Source: Candidatus Rokuibacteriota bacterium (lineage in GTDB: Bacteria; Methylomirabilota; Methylomirabilia; Rokubacteriales; CSP1-6). From it: 57,008 nt of DNA. The position numbers and the translations under genes are program-made. Location: the NCBI GenBank assembly GCA_003220225.1, contig QHRU01000053.1, positions 1 to 57,008 on the forward strand. Reading direction: 5' to 3'. Positions 3,378 through 36,185 of the stretch are shown here, piece by piece (the stretch's first letter is position 1; every line of letters starts with the position of its first letter). The notes beneath the pieces were generated by a model that saw nothing but the letters and a program-made list of their open reading frames with translations, had not been told where the DNA came from and searched no databases.

Positions 3378-4130
3378 ATGCGAGGTGTGTTCGCGACCGC
3401 CGTCGCGCTGACTGTCGTGCTGGGAGCCGTCCTCGCCGTCTCGCCGCGGGCGCGCGCCGACGAGCCGATGACGAAGACGCAGGGGGACGCCATCCTCGAC
3501 GAGCTGCGCCAGATCAAGAAGCTGCTCGAGCGCATGCCGCCGGCGCCCTCCGCTGCCGCCGCGCCGCGCGCCGACGAGCGCGTCAAAGTCGGCCTGGGCA
3601 CCGCGCCCTCCATTGGACGCAGCGACGCACCGGTGGTCATGGTCGAGTTCACGGACTACCAGTGCCCGTTCTGCCAGCGCTTCCACATGACGGCCTTCAA
3701 CGACCTGAAGCGCGAGTACATCGACACCGGGAAGATCCGGTACGTGAGCCGCGACCTCCCGCTGCCCATGCATCCCCACGCCATGAGCGCGGCGAATGCG
3801 GCGCGCTGCGCGGGCGAGCAGAACAGGGAGAAGTTCTGGGAGATGCGCCATCGGCTGATCGTCAACGCCAACCAGCTCGGCACCGACAAATACACCGCGC
3901 TGGCCGACGAGCTGAAGCTCGACCGCGCGGCGTTCCAGGCCTGCCTCGCCGGGGACAAGTACAAGGCGCAGATCGAGAAGGACGTGACCGACGCCGGGCT
4001 GGCCGGCATCGGGGGGACGCCGAGCTTCATCATCGGACGCGTCAGCGGCGACGGCGTGGACGGCGTGAAGGTTGTCGGCGCTCAACCCTTCGGCGTGTTC
4101 GACGCCAGGCTCAAGGAGCTGCTCAAGTAG
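3378..4130 (+). CDS. Exported DsbA-family thioredoxin-fold protein (CPFC)
   Basis: Periplasmic thiol oxidoreductase of the DsbA family (thioredoxin_4 type). A signal peptide spans residues 1-27. A helical, Pro/Ala-rich linker follows to about residue 70. The thioredoxin fold then begins, with active site C96-P-F-C99 after EFTDYQ and the cis-Pro loop GGTPSFII near residue 213. The start has a strong site (GAGGAGG). At 250 residues it is a normal DsbA/DsbG-like length. It is a Cys-containing paralogue of the candidate selenoprotein at 34676-35314: both share DYQ, PFC and the PLPxHxxAMxAxxAARCAGEQ region. It may be co-transcribed with the TauE/SafE gene 31 nt downstream. Confidence 0.92.
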   Translation: MRGVFATAVALTVVLGAVLAVSPRARADEPMTKTQGDAILDELRQIKKLLERMPPAPSAAAAPRADERVKVGLGTAPSIGRSDAPVVMVEFTDYQCPFCQRFHMTAFNDLKREYIDTGKIRYVSRDLPLPMHPHAMSAANAARCAGEQNREKFWEMRHRLIVNANQLGTDKYTALADELKLDRAAFQACLAGDKYKAQIEKDVTDAGLAGIGGTPSFIIGRVSGDGVDGVKVVGAQPFGVFDARLKELLK

Positions 4131-4161: not shown

Positions 4162-4896
4162 ATGGCTCCGCTCTGGACGCTTGTCGCCGTCTTCCTCGCG
4201 GGGACGGTGAAGGGCATCGCCGGCCTCGGCTTCCCGACCCTCGCCACTCCGCTCCTCAGCCTCGCCGTCGACGTGAAGACCGCCGTGGCTCTGCTGATCC
4301 TGCCGAACATCGTCATGGATGGCATCCAGTTCGCGCGGCGCGGCGCGCCGACGGAGACCATCCGCCGTCTGCTGCCACTCCTGGCCGGCGGCGCGATCGG
4401 CACGATCGTCGGCACACGTCTGCTCGTCGTGCTGCCCACGCGCACGGTGCTGCTGCTGCTCGGCGGCTTCGTCGTGGCCTTCGTGGCGCTGAACGCCACG
4501 CGCGTTTCTCCACGGCTGCCCGCGGCGTGGGAGCCCTGGGTAGGACCGGTGGCCGGGTTCGTCGCGGGCGTCGTGGGCGGCGTCACGAACGTGCCGGGCA
4601 CGCCGCTGGCGATCTACTTTTACGCGCTCGGCATGTCGAAGACCGACTTCCTCGCTTCGACGGCCTTCACGTTTCTCGTCTACAAGCTCGTCCAGCTCGC
4701 CGCCGTCGCCTGGTACGGCCTGCTCTCGACTGCCCTCGCCGCGACGTCGGTAGCGCTCACGGGCATCGCGCTCGCCGGCTTCGTCGTCGGCCTCTGGGTC
4801 CAGAACCGCCTCGACCAGCGGGCGTTCAATACCGCCGTGCTCGCGCTTCTCGGCGCGCTCGGTCTCTGGCTCATCGTCCGGAGCCTGCTCGGGTGA
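4162..4896 (+). CDS. TauE/SafE-family (DUF81) anion permease
   Basis: Inner-membrane permease of about eight transmembrane segments, of a family linked to export or uptake of sulfite, sulfoacetate or other organosulfur anions. The two-fold repeat is visible: GIAGLGFPTLATPLLSL near residues 17-33, and the second-half counterpart GVVGGVTNVPGTPLAIY near residues 136-152. At 244 residues it is full length. The start at 4162 follows the DsbA-like gene by 31 nt. Its stop overlaps the macrodomain start as GTGA. The substrate cannot be told from sequence. Confidence 0.9.
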   Translation: MAPLWTLVAVFLAGTVKGIAGLGFPTLATPLLSLAVDVKTAVALLILPNIVMDGIQFARRGAPTETIRRLLPLLAGGAIGTIVGTRLLVVLPTRTVLLLLGGFVVAFVALNATRVSPRLPAAWEPWVGPVAGFVAGVVGGVTNVPGTPLAIYFYALGMSKTDFLASTAFTFLVYKLVQLAAVAWYGLLSTALAATSVALTGIALAGFVVGLWVQNRLDQRAFNTAVLALLGALGLWLIVRSLLG

Positions 4897-34105: not shown

Positions 34106-34366
34106 TCAGGAACGGCCCTCGGGAACGGGTTCCGTCCCGCCGCTCATCACGGCGAGGACCAGTGCGCCGCCCGCGCTGCGCACCGAGTGCACGCATCCCG
34201 GCGGCCGCCGGGCGTAATCGCCCGCGGCGCACGTGCCGGTGTCGTCGGAGACGCTGCCCTCGAGGACGAAGATCTGCTCGTCGCCGACGTGCCGGTGGCG
34301 CGGGATCACCGCGCCCGGCTCGTATCGCATGAGGACGGTACGGCGGTCGCCGTCCTCGAAAAGGAT
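34106..34366 (-). CDS. ChrR-like cupin domain protein, possible AUC start
   Basis: Small single-domain cupin with IPRHRHVGDEQIFVLEGSVSD and the second motif PPGCVHSVRS, similar to the metal-binding half of ChrR anti-sigma factors. From the ATG at 34330 it has 74 residues and lacks the first strand. In frame upstream, LFEDGDRRTVL supplies that strand, entered at ATC 34366 with GGAGGTG 7 nt before it, overlapping the Rieske gene's end. No ATG, GTG or TTG is available in that interval. The AUC start is plausible rather than certain. Third gene of the DsbA-Rieske-cupin unit. Confidence 0.7.
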   Translation of the reverse strand: MLFEDGDRRTVLMRYEPGAVIPRHRHVGDEQIFVLEGSVSDDTGTCAAGDYARRPPGCVHSVRSAGGALVLAVMSGGTEPVPEGRS

Positions 34367-34367
34367 C

Positions 34368-34676
34368 TCACGGCACCTCCACCTCGACCATGCCGTTCAC
34401 CACGCGCGTGGCGAAGACGCTGATCGAGAGGTCGTCGGCCACGCGGCACTGCCCGGTGGCCAGGTCGAAGTCGAAGCCGTGCCACGGACACACCACCGCG
34501 TCGCCCTCGATCCAGCCGTCGGCCAGCGGCCCGTCCTCGTGCGGGCAGAGCGCGCTCAGCGCGTAGAAGCGGCCGCCGCCCCCGTTGAACACGGCGAGCG
34601 TGAACGAGCCCGCCTCCACCAGGCAGCCCCGGCCGGCCGGGATGTCGGCACCGCGCGCGACGCGCAGAAAGGCCAT
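34368..34676 (-). CDS. Rieske [2Fe-2S] ferredoxin-like protein
   Basis: 102-residue soluble Rieske protein of the NirD/biphenyl-dioxygenase ferredoxin type. Ligands are in CPHEDG and CPWHGF, with 17 residues between the motif pairs. No signal peptide. ATG overlaps the stop of the DsbA-like gene (ATGA). It carries electrons to an unknown partner oxygenase or reductase, none of which lies beside it. Confidence 0.93.
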   Translation of the reverse strand: MAFLRVARGADIPAGRGCLVEAGSFTLAVFNGGGGRFYALSALCPHEDGPLADGWIEGDAVVCPWHGFDFDLATGQCRVADDLSISVFATRVVNGMVEVEVP

Positions 34677-35314
34677 CAGCGGCGCGCTCGGAGCGCGTCG
34701 TCGATGGCGGCGCGGAAGTTCTCGAGGGGATGCGCGCCCACGAGCGGCTTGCCGTTGATGAGGAAGGTGGGCGTGCTGCGCACGCCGAGCTCGCGCCCCT
34801 CCGCGAAGTCCGCCTCCACGGCGGCGCGGAACGTGTGGTCGTCGAGGCAGCGCTCGAAGCGCTCGCGGTCGAGATCGAGGTTGACGGCGTAGCCGACGAG
34901 GTCGTCGCGCTCGAAGCGCGGCTGCCGCTCGAACAGCACGTCGTGATAGGCCCAGTAGCGGCCCTGCTCGCCGGCGCAGCGCGCGGCCTCGTGGGCGGGC
35001 ATGGCCAGCGCGTGCGAGGGCAGCGGGAAGTCCTTGTAGATCAGACGCACGCGGCCGTCGTACTCCTTGAGCACCTGCTCCAGCGACCGCTGGACGCGCC
35101 GGCAGAACGGTCACTGGTAATCGGAGAACTCCACGATGGTGACGGGTGCCGTCGCCGGGCCTTTGACCATCTGCGTCTGGACGGCGAGGCGGTCGTGCGC
35201 GCCCGGCGCGGGCGCGCGGCAGCCCATTCCGAACGCGGCCACCCCGAGGCTGAGCCCGAGCGCGATGGTGTAGACTCGCCGCGACACAGGGGAGATCGCG
35301 AACCGCAGGCTCAC
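34676..35314 (-). CDS. Candidate selenoprotein: exported DsbA-like oxidoreductase with U-P-F-C active site
   Basis: 212-residue DsbA-type protein read through one in-frame TGA. Residues 1-32 are a signal peptide or weak lipoprotein signal (ending GMGC). The fold opens with APVTIVEFSDYQ, then UGA (35113-35111) at residue 68, then PFC (C71), giving UxxC in place of CxxC. Downstream reading continues cleanly with IYKDFPLPSHALAMP, CAGEQGRYW and the cis-Pro loop RSTPTFLI. The paralogue at 3378 has CAG TGC CCG TTC TGC where this gene has CAG TGA CCG TTC TGC. A hairpin with GGUC loop follows (see 35079-35094). Starts at GTG, 8 nt after TATCCT. Ordinary gene calling splits it in two. A nonsense mutation or sequencing error is the alternative. 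Confidence 0.82.
35079..35094 (-). promoter_or_regulatory. Candidate bacterial SECIS element
   Basis: In the mRNA, UCCAGC-GGUC-GCUGGA forms a 6-bp stem with a GGUC loop, the loop sequence of the E. coli fdhF SECIS. The GG lies 22 nt after the UGA, inside the usual bacterial window. An additional CUGC/GCAG pairing below, across an asymmetric bulge, can lengthen the stem. It is within the coding sequence, as bacterial SECIS elements must be. Confidence 0.7.
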
Positions 35315-35332: not shown

Positions 35333-35794
35333 ATGCCAGCCGCCCTGGACGCCGTGCTCGGCACCTATCCCTCCTGGTCGCACCTCGTGGTCCGGCTCGC
35401 GCTCGGCGTGGTGTTCTTCGCGCACGGGTCACAAAAGGTGCTCGGCTGGTTCGGTGGTCACGGCCTCGCCGGCACCGTCAAAATGTTCCAGGGCCTGGGC
35501 GTGCCGCCGGCGGCGGTGGTGCTCGCGGCGTTCATCGAGTTCCTCGGCGGCTGCGCCATGCTCACCGGACTGCTCGCGCGCCCGGCCGCCGTGGGCATCA
35601 TCGTGGTCATGCTCGTGGCCATCGCGAAGGTGCACGGCAAGCACGGGTTCTTCCTCAACCTCGGCGTGCCCGGCAAGGGGCCCGGCTACGAGTTCAACTT
35701 CGTGCTGATCGCCATGGCGCTGTCGATCCTGATCGGCGGCGCCGGCGTGCTGTCGATCGACCGCGCGCTCTGGCTCGCGCTCGCGGGAAAGTAG
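35333..35794 (+). CDS. DoxX-family membrane protein
   Basis: 153-residue inner-membrane protein with four helices. Typical DoxX segments: GVVFFAHGSQKVLGWFGGHG (residues 30-49), then MFQGLGVPPAAVVLAAFIEF and GFFLNLGVPGKGPGYEFNFV. GGAGG lies 7 nt before the ATG. DoxX proteins have been tied to thiosulfate:quinone reduction and to redox-stress membrane complexes, which fits the divergent thiol oxidoreductase. 18 bp separate the two start codons. Confidence 0.92.
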   Translation: MPAALDAVLGTYPSWSHLVVRLALGVVFFAHGSQKVLGWFGGHGLAGTVKMFQGLGVPPAAVVLAAFIEFLGGCAMLTGLLARPAAVGIIVVMLVAIAKVHGKHGFFLNLGVPGKGPGYEFNFVLIAMALSILIGGAGVLSIDRALWLALAGK

Positions 35795-35801
35795 GCGACC
35801 C

Positions 35802-36185
35802 ATGGGCTTCCTGCTCCGCGTGCTGATTAATGCCGCCGCCCTCTGGGTGGCGGCCTCGCTCATCCCGGGCATCGCCCTCGGCGGCCTCGGCCACACGCTG
35901 CTCGCCGCGCTGGTCCTGGGCATCATCAACGCCGTCGTCCGCCCCATCCTGATCTTCCTGACGCTGCCGATCACGCTGGTCACGCTCGGGCTCTTCATCT
36001 TCGTGCTGAACGCGTTCTGCCTGTGGCTGACCTCGCGGCTGGTGCCCGGCTTCGAGGTGCACGGGTTCGGCGCGGCGTTCCTCGGCGCGCTGGTGATCTC
36101 CGCCGTGTCGTGGGTCCTGACGGCGTTCCTGTCGGATGCCGGCCGCGTGCGCCGGATCGAGGTGCGACGTCTGGAGCGGCGCTAG
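35802..36185 (+). CDS. Phage-holin-4-superfamily (YvlD-like) membrane protein
   Basis: 127-residue protein with four helices and the family motif LGIINAVVRPILIFLTLPIT (residues 39-58), followed by TLGLFIFVLNAFCLWLTSRLVPGF. Despite the family name these are chromosomal membrane proteins, not lysis genes. Follows doxX by 7 nt. Confidence 0.92.
   Translation: MGFLLRVLINAAALWVAASLIPGIALGGLGHTLLAALVLGIINAVVRPILIFLTLPITLVTLGLFIFVLNAFCLWLTSRLVPGFEVHGFGAAFLGALVISAVSWVLTAFLSDAGRVRRIEVRRLERR

Follow-up and report, generated by a model that had tools for sequence, protein, structure and literature searches.

In the bSECIS of E. coli fdhF, an apical loop with GGU lies a short distance past the UGA. Published rules for bSECIS hairpins ask for a G in the first two loop positions, a spacing of 16–37 nt and a loop of 3–9 nt (PMC13188914). 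DsbA-like and DsbG-like selenoproteins with a UxxC site were reported from the Sargasso Sea in 2005 (PMC1088965) and have been catalogued (PMC13188914). The latter review also cites a Methylomirabilota metagenome-assembled genome (MAG) with 63 predicted selenoprotein genes. A DsbA-like selenoprotein in Rokubacteria was not described in the literature searched.

The gene analysed here lies on the minus strand (34676–35314) of the window, that is, the whole stretch of 57,008 nt under study. It is almost certainly a real selenoprotein gene. The predicted product is an exported thiol-disulfide oxidoreductase of the DsbA-like kind, with selenocysteine (Sec) as the attacking residue of its U-P-F-C site. 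The protein resembles the "DsbA-like protein form 1" of the Sargasso Sea (PF01323/COG2761) in having Sec first in UxxC, a bSECIS soon after the UGA (PMC1088965, PMC13188914) and Cys homologues elsewhere. Unlike the Sargasso form, it belongs to one clade that a Rokubacterial family has retained; the CCAGC-GGUC-GCUGG hairpin is fixed in this clade, and the neighbouring genes are those for Rieske, cupin and DoxX. A Thioredoxin_4-type domain and the alternation of U and C at UxxC are shared with Rcas_1661, a DsbG-like selenoprotein (NF041057). Assignment to this thioredoxin-like (seleno)lipoprotein family was rejected, since the score of 126.8 bits falls below the curated cut-off of 190, which makes the Rokubacterial protein a relative and not a member. 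BdbD, C. diphtheriae DsbA/TsdA and alpha-DsbA have the same fold at roughly 20–32% identity, with Cys there and Sec here. Compared with the bSECIS of fdhF, the window hairpin is unrelated in sequence and has a 4-nt loop on a stem of 6–7 bp.

Since UxxC proteins of the DsbA/DsbG-like kind have been known since 2005, the Rokubacterial gene is a lineage-wide addition to a known type, and the novelty is modest. The first-pass annotation, which had called Sec at the attacking position of an exported DsbA-like protein uncommon, was only partly right, as the UxxC form is a catalogued type (PMC1088965, PMC13188914).

An In-Frame TGA on the Active-Site Cysteine Column

Between the GTG at 35314 and the stop TGA (34678–34676), the sole internal TGA is found at 35113–35111. 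It is predicted to be read as selenocysteine at position 1 of the U-P-F-C site, within the peptide ...TIVEFSDYQ-U-PFCRRVQRSLEQ... The claim that a TGA falls on the first Cys of CPFC, made with no strand given, is correct for the minus strand. Translation may start at GTG 35314 or, more likely, at GTG 35287 (MSRRVYTIALGL..., signal-peptide-like).

The Pfam Thioredoxin_4 match (130.5 bits, E 8.7e-38, residues 46–206) is unbroken over residue 68, the site of the TGA, and the Pfam DSBA match likewise runs across it, in keeping with the continuous similarity described at first. A Cys-containing paralogue (CPFC) on the plus strand at 3378–4130 had been said to hold TGC in the identical codon context, and the alignment confirms it: TAC CAG TGC CCG TTC TGC there versus TAC CAG TGA CCG TTC TGC here. 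An in-frame TGA where the homologues have Cys, with coding sequence on both sides, is a defining pattern of bacterial selenoproteins, and this is the pattern observed. An Rfam scan of the locus returned chance matches only.

Conservation of the UGA and Loss of Sec in Relatives

An orthologue with TGA at exactly the same codon was found in 44 of 56 same-family genomes, a recurrence that excludes chance and marks the gene as genuine and intact. Three relatives (G004, G045 and G052) carry Cys in place of Sec, so UGA/Cys pairs do occur at the active-site column, where the first-pass annotation had proposed to look for them. The tree places 43 Sec rows and three Cys rows together in one clade (SH-aLRT 99). 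Given the common descent of its members, counts of sequences exceed the independent events behind them. As the Cys rows fall inside the Sec clade, Cys is best read there as secondary and probably arose by two losses. G045 lacks selA and tRNA-Sec; G052 retains both. Most of the remaining same-family genomes hold distant relatives only, the exceptions being G007, G028 and G008. G007 and G028 have another paralogue with a TGA at the same motif. This second Rokubacterial UPFC/UPYC paralogue (L076 in G007, L075 in G028) has an in-frame TGA and a different hairpin, CACG-UCC-GUG, and its place in the tree is far removed from the window family. The orthologue of G008 (L074) has lost its N-terminal half, active site included, though selA and tRNA-Sec are present in that genome.

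Beyond Rokubacteria, the column of the UPFC site is TGA in two Acidobacteria MAGs (L158 and L164, hairpin GAGRGUCG-GUC-CGACYCUC) and in one Deltaproteobacteria MAG (L173, hairpin GAGUUCA-GUC-UGAACUC), and the other homologues around these are Cys. The tree needs seven changes of state, at least three of them forced by well-supported branches. Four more Sec lineages of the UPFC type, each set apart from the window family by its hairpin, suggest repeated gain or loss of Sec at the site, and the differing hairpins would suit independent Sec origins. A contig labelled Klebsiella pneumoniae (L175, MAG TH-08apr19-175) shares its UPFC site and its hairpin sequence with L173, so the label is probably wrong. 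Viral contigs yielded a single distant Cys relative.

A Conserved and Covarying bSECIS Hairpin

The hairpin GTCCAGC-GGTC-GCTGGAG occupies 35078–35095 on the minus strand, with its loop at 35088–35085. The GGUC loop begins 22 nt past the UGA, as the first reading had it, on a stem of 6–7 bp whose outermost pair is unformed in the window sequence. Loop and spacing fit the published bSECIS model (PMC13188914). Neither strand of the 57-kb window has another perfect stem of 6 bp or more closed by a 4-nt GGTC or AGGT loop. The folding energy is −12.4 kcal/mol (z −1.1); in such GC-rich DNA, a single-sequence folding energy with this z is not discriminating and was set aside as evidence.

Across 41 aligned homologues, 94.8% of the cells are paired, and two-sided changes occur in three of the seven pairs (e.g., GTTCAGC/GCTGAAC, GCCCAGC/GCTGGGC and CTCCAGC/GCTGGAG). 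Neither the pairing nor the covariation score was equalled in any of 500 shuffles, and in slid controls at most 43% of cells paired. Moreover, the three codons of the hairpin, at +8, +9 and +10, are fixed (R CGG in 32/32, S TCG in 25/25 and L CTG in 44/44), and no other column among the 121 tested deviates as much in synonymous usage (G = 63, 46 and 80; median 4.5). The homologues have GGUC, AGGU, GGGC or GGAC as loops. Homologues with UGA keep the hairpin, whereas in those with Cys it has decayed, which answers the check on its conservation that had been called for: G004 has a damaged remnant (CCCAGCAGGTGATGGG), and in G045 and G052 the hairpin no longer forms.

The Genome Encodes the Sec Machinery

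Contig C64, which makes up the window, belongs to the 6.03-Mb genome of a soil bacterium (completeness 97.3%, contamination 1.9%), whose nearest named relatives are Candidatus Rokubacteria/Rokuibacteriota MAGs and whose closest isolate is AR29 (88%). The genes for tRNA-Sec (69.7 bits), selA (584.8) and selB (372) are adjacent on contig C5, and selD itself contains one TGA, in its active site CAG-U-ASK. The complete set required of a bacterium that makes selenoproteins (SelA, SelB, SelD and tRNA-Sec) is therefore encoded in this 97%-complete genome, which supports the Sec reading proposed at first; none of the refuting conditions named there and put to the test went against it. Of 77 relatives searched, 65 yielded a tRNA-Sec and 70 a selA.

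Fold, Export and Possible Redox Partners

The AlphaFold model (pLDDT 94.6) matches DsbA-type structures in the PDB, namely C. diphtheriae DsbA/TsdA, BdbD and alpha-DsbA, with TM-scores of about 0.76–0.79. It shows the features by which a DsbA-like protein is recognized, a thioredoxin fold that contains a helical insert and a [C/U]PxC motif where the first active-site helix starts; U (residue 40 of the model) stands just ahead of this helix (41–56). In alignment A3, T180-P181, the T-P of the predicted cis-Pro loop, is invariant. Two further Cys residues, C112 and C155, are also invariant there and probably form a structural disulfide. An A-x-A-like site ends the signal region in most rows of the alignment, which makes export likely; no lipobox is evident in most rows.

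VKOR is a usual oxidant of DsbA. No DsbB was found in the genome, which has two DsbD_TM proteins and one VKOR, the latter with a TGA and on a 13-kb contig.

A Conserved Rieske/Cupin/DoxX Neighbourhood

Downstream on the minus strand lie a Rieske [2Fe-2S] ferredoxin-like gene (34368–34676, Pfam Rieske 58.9 bits) and a ChrR-type cupin gene (Cupin_7, 34106–34369, start provisional). The Rieske ATG overlaps the stop of the dsbA-like gene (TGATG), so the two are probably translationally coupled. On the plus strand, a divergent gene for a DoxX membrane protein (35333–35794, Pfam DoxX 72 bits) is followed co-directionally by one for a small membrane protein of the Phage_holin_4_2 family (35802–36185). 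Among 37 Rokubacterial loci, some of them cut by contig ends, DoxX is divergent in 26, Rieske downstream in 23 and cupin downstream in 16, and these counts mark the neighbourhood as a real conserved module. The Rieske/cupin operon recognized at first is thus a conserved one. DoxX, suggested in the same annotation as an electron partner, proved to be a conserved neighbour, but that role is unproven: the DoxX proteins have 0–3 Cys, usually 0–2, and no conserved Cys pair. DoxX was not adopted as a disulfide partner for this reason, and a direct disulfide relay between it and the Sec protein is unlikely.

The nucleotide motif GCGAGTCTACACC (35267–35279, minus strand) is conserved upstream of the gene, mostly in loci with divergent doxX, and is a possible promoter or operator. 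Of 36 Rokubacterial loci, 21 have it in the form GCGAGTNTAC(T/A)(A/C)C, 145–178 nt 5′ of the UGA, and DoxX is divergent in 20 of these. It always includes the rare CGA codon, and only 20 copies are found in 349 kb of loci.

Alternative Explanations

The TGA is one base away from TGC or TGG and the genome was assembled from a metagenome, so that a nonsense mutation in a pseudogene, or a TGC/TGG miscalled as TGA, has to be considered; one relative, G008, does have a decayed copy without the active-site half. However, the same codon is TGA in 44 independent assemblies in which the downstream protein is intact and conserved, the hairpin is conserved and covaries, and the Sec machinery is present. 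On this sequence evidence, conservation already refutes an error or a pseudogene, whose probability is negligible. It is just as improbable that two genes are present, a short exported peptide up to the TGA and a second protein from a downstream start. The open reading frames of 104 and 132 aa in the ORF lists would allow such a split, but the TGA lies inside a single Pfam domain, the structure is modelled at very high confidence as one DsbA domain, the invariant UPxC requires both halves and the Cys relatives are single genes. The frame is open whatever residue the TGA encodes, and UGA could thus be read as Trp or another residue, by a genome-wide change of code or by natural suppression. Genes here, the dsbA-like gene included, nevertheless stop at TGA, and the TGA falls on a Cys column in the presence of the hairpin and the full Sec machinery, so that this explanation is very improbable, if marginally less so than the other two.

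A further alternative concerns function alone and is compatible with the selenoprotein reading. The protein may be a Sec-containing reductase or isomerase serving the Rieske/DoxX module, in place of a protein-folding oxidase. The conserved operon with Rieske and cupin and the divergent DoxX are in favour of this role, as are the Thr that precedes the cis-Pro and the weak matches to the NCBIfam DsbG and Rcas_1661 models. On the other side, the best solved structures are DsbA-type oxidoreductases and DoxX is without conserved Cys pairs. This role is a serious contender, judged somewhat less probable than its opposite.

Proposed Mechanism

The preferred reading, an exported Sec-containing DsbA-like protein, is based on computed observations: the frame, the TGA on a Cys column, the Sec machinery, the covarying hairpin, the 44 relatives, the DsbA fold and the operon. 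From these we infer the actual insertion of Sec, the export route, the choice between oxidation and reduction, and the partners. The protein would be made from the conserved operon together with the Rieske ferredoxin-like protein and the cupin. The bSECIS hairpin, 22 nt past the UGA, would recruit SelB with Sec-tRNA(Sec), and the UGA would be read as Sec. Translation would then finish the Thioredoxin_4 domain with its T-P cis-proline loop and two conserved Cys, and the exported protein may swap disulfides (or selenenyl-sulfides) with its substrates via UPFC.

A Candidate Sec-Containing VKOR and Other Frames

The VKOR mentioned above is a candidate selenoprotein of the same genome (G000, contig C107 around 4418–4867; L178:1381–1830), adjoined by a tannase gene. 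Its single in-frame TGA (C107:4799; L178:1762–1764) falls on the second Cys of CXXC, in the peptide ...VDLRQ-CPL-U-IVGHALHAAVAALLGIVWWVV*. Against Pfam, the protein scores 42.7 bits if this position is Cys, 35.9 if it is X and 33.1 if the sequence is cut at the TGA; the column favours Cys and the homology runs on past the TGA. A hairpin with a 6-bp stem (9 bp with one bulge) and a GGUC loop follows 26 nt past the TGA, and such a GGUC hairpin accompanies 7 of 43,541 TGA triplets in about 2.1 Mb. The candidate rests on one genome and one 13-kb contig, which could be contamination, as its FtsK shares only 44% identity with the FtsK of the relative G025. No VKOR was found in about 2.1 Mb read of the 3.6-Mb G025 genome, and the follow-up gave no PDB, plasmid or viral match.

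VKOR is absent from the 2026 selenoprotein catalogue (PMC13188914), and the literature search found no paper on a VKOR selenoprotein; judged from its sequence, the candidate would be an uncatalogued one. A selenium-based oxidative folding relay, in which electrons would pass from Sec-DsbA (U-P-F-C) to Sec-VKOR (C-P-L-U, with the quinone-side Cys replaced by Sec) and on to quinone, is a tentative and rather doubtful proposal.

A scan of G025 with more loop types brought up an OsmC-like frame (UPLYRT; L286:259, plus strand) and an AhpD/CMD-like frame (L203, minus strand, about 6141), both named by eye. With their TGA and GGUC/AGGU hairpins, these are probably further Rokubacterial selenoproteins.

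Significance

What would likely be taken for two "hypothetical" fragments becomes one enzyme, conserved in an entire family of bacteria from soil and groundwater that have not been cultured. Its Sec genes, Cys revertants and decaying hairpins form a clean natural series on the gain and loss of Sec. The VKOR candidate, if confirmed, would mean that Sec also serves in the membrane step of disulfide formation.
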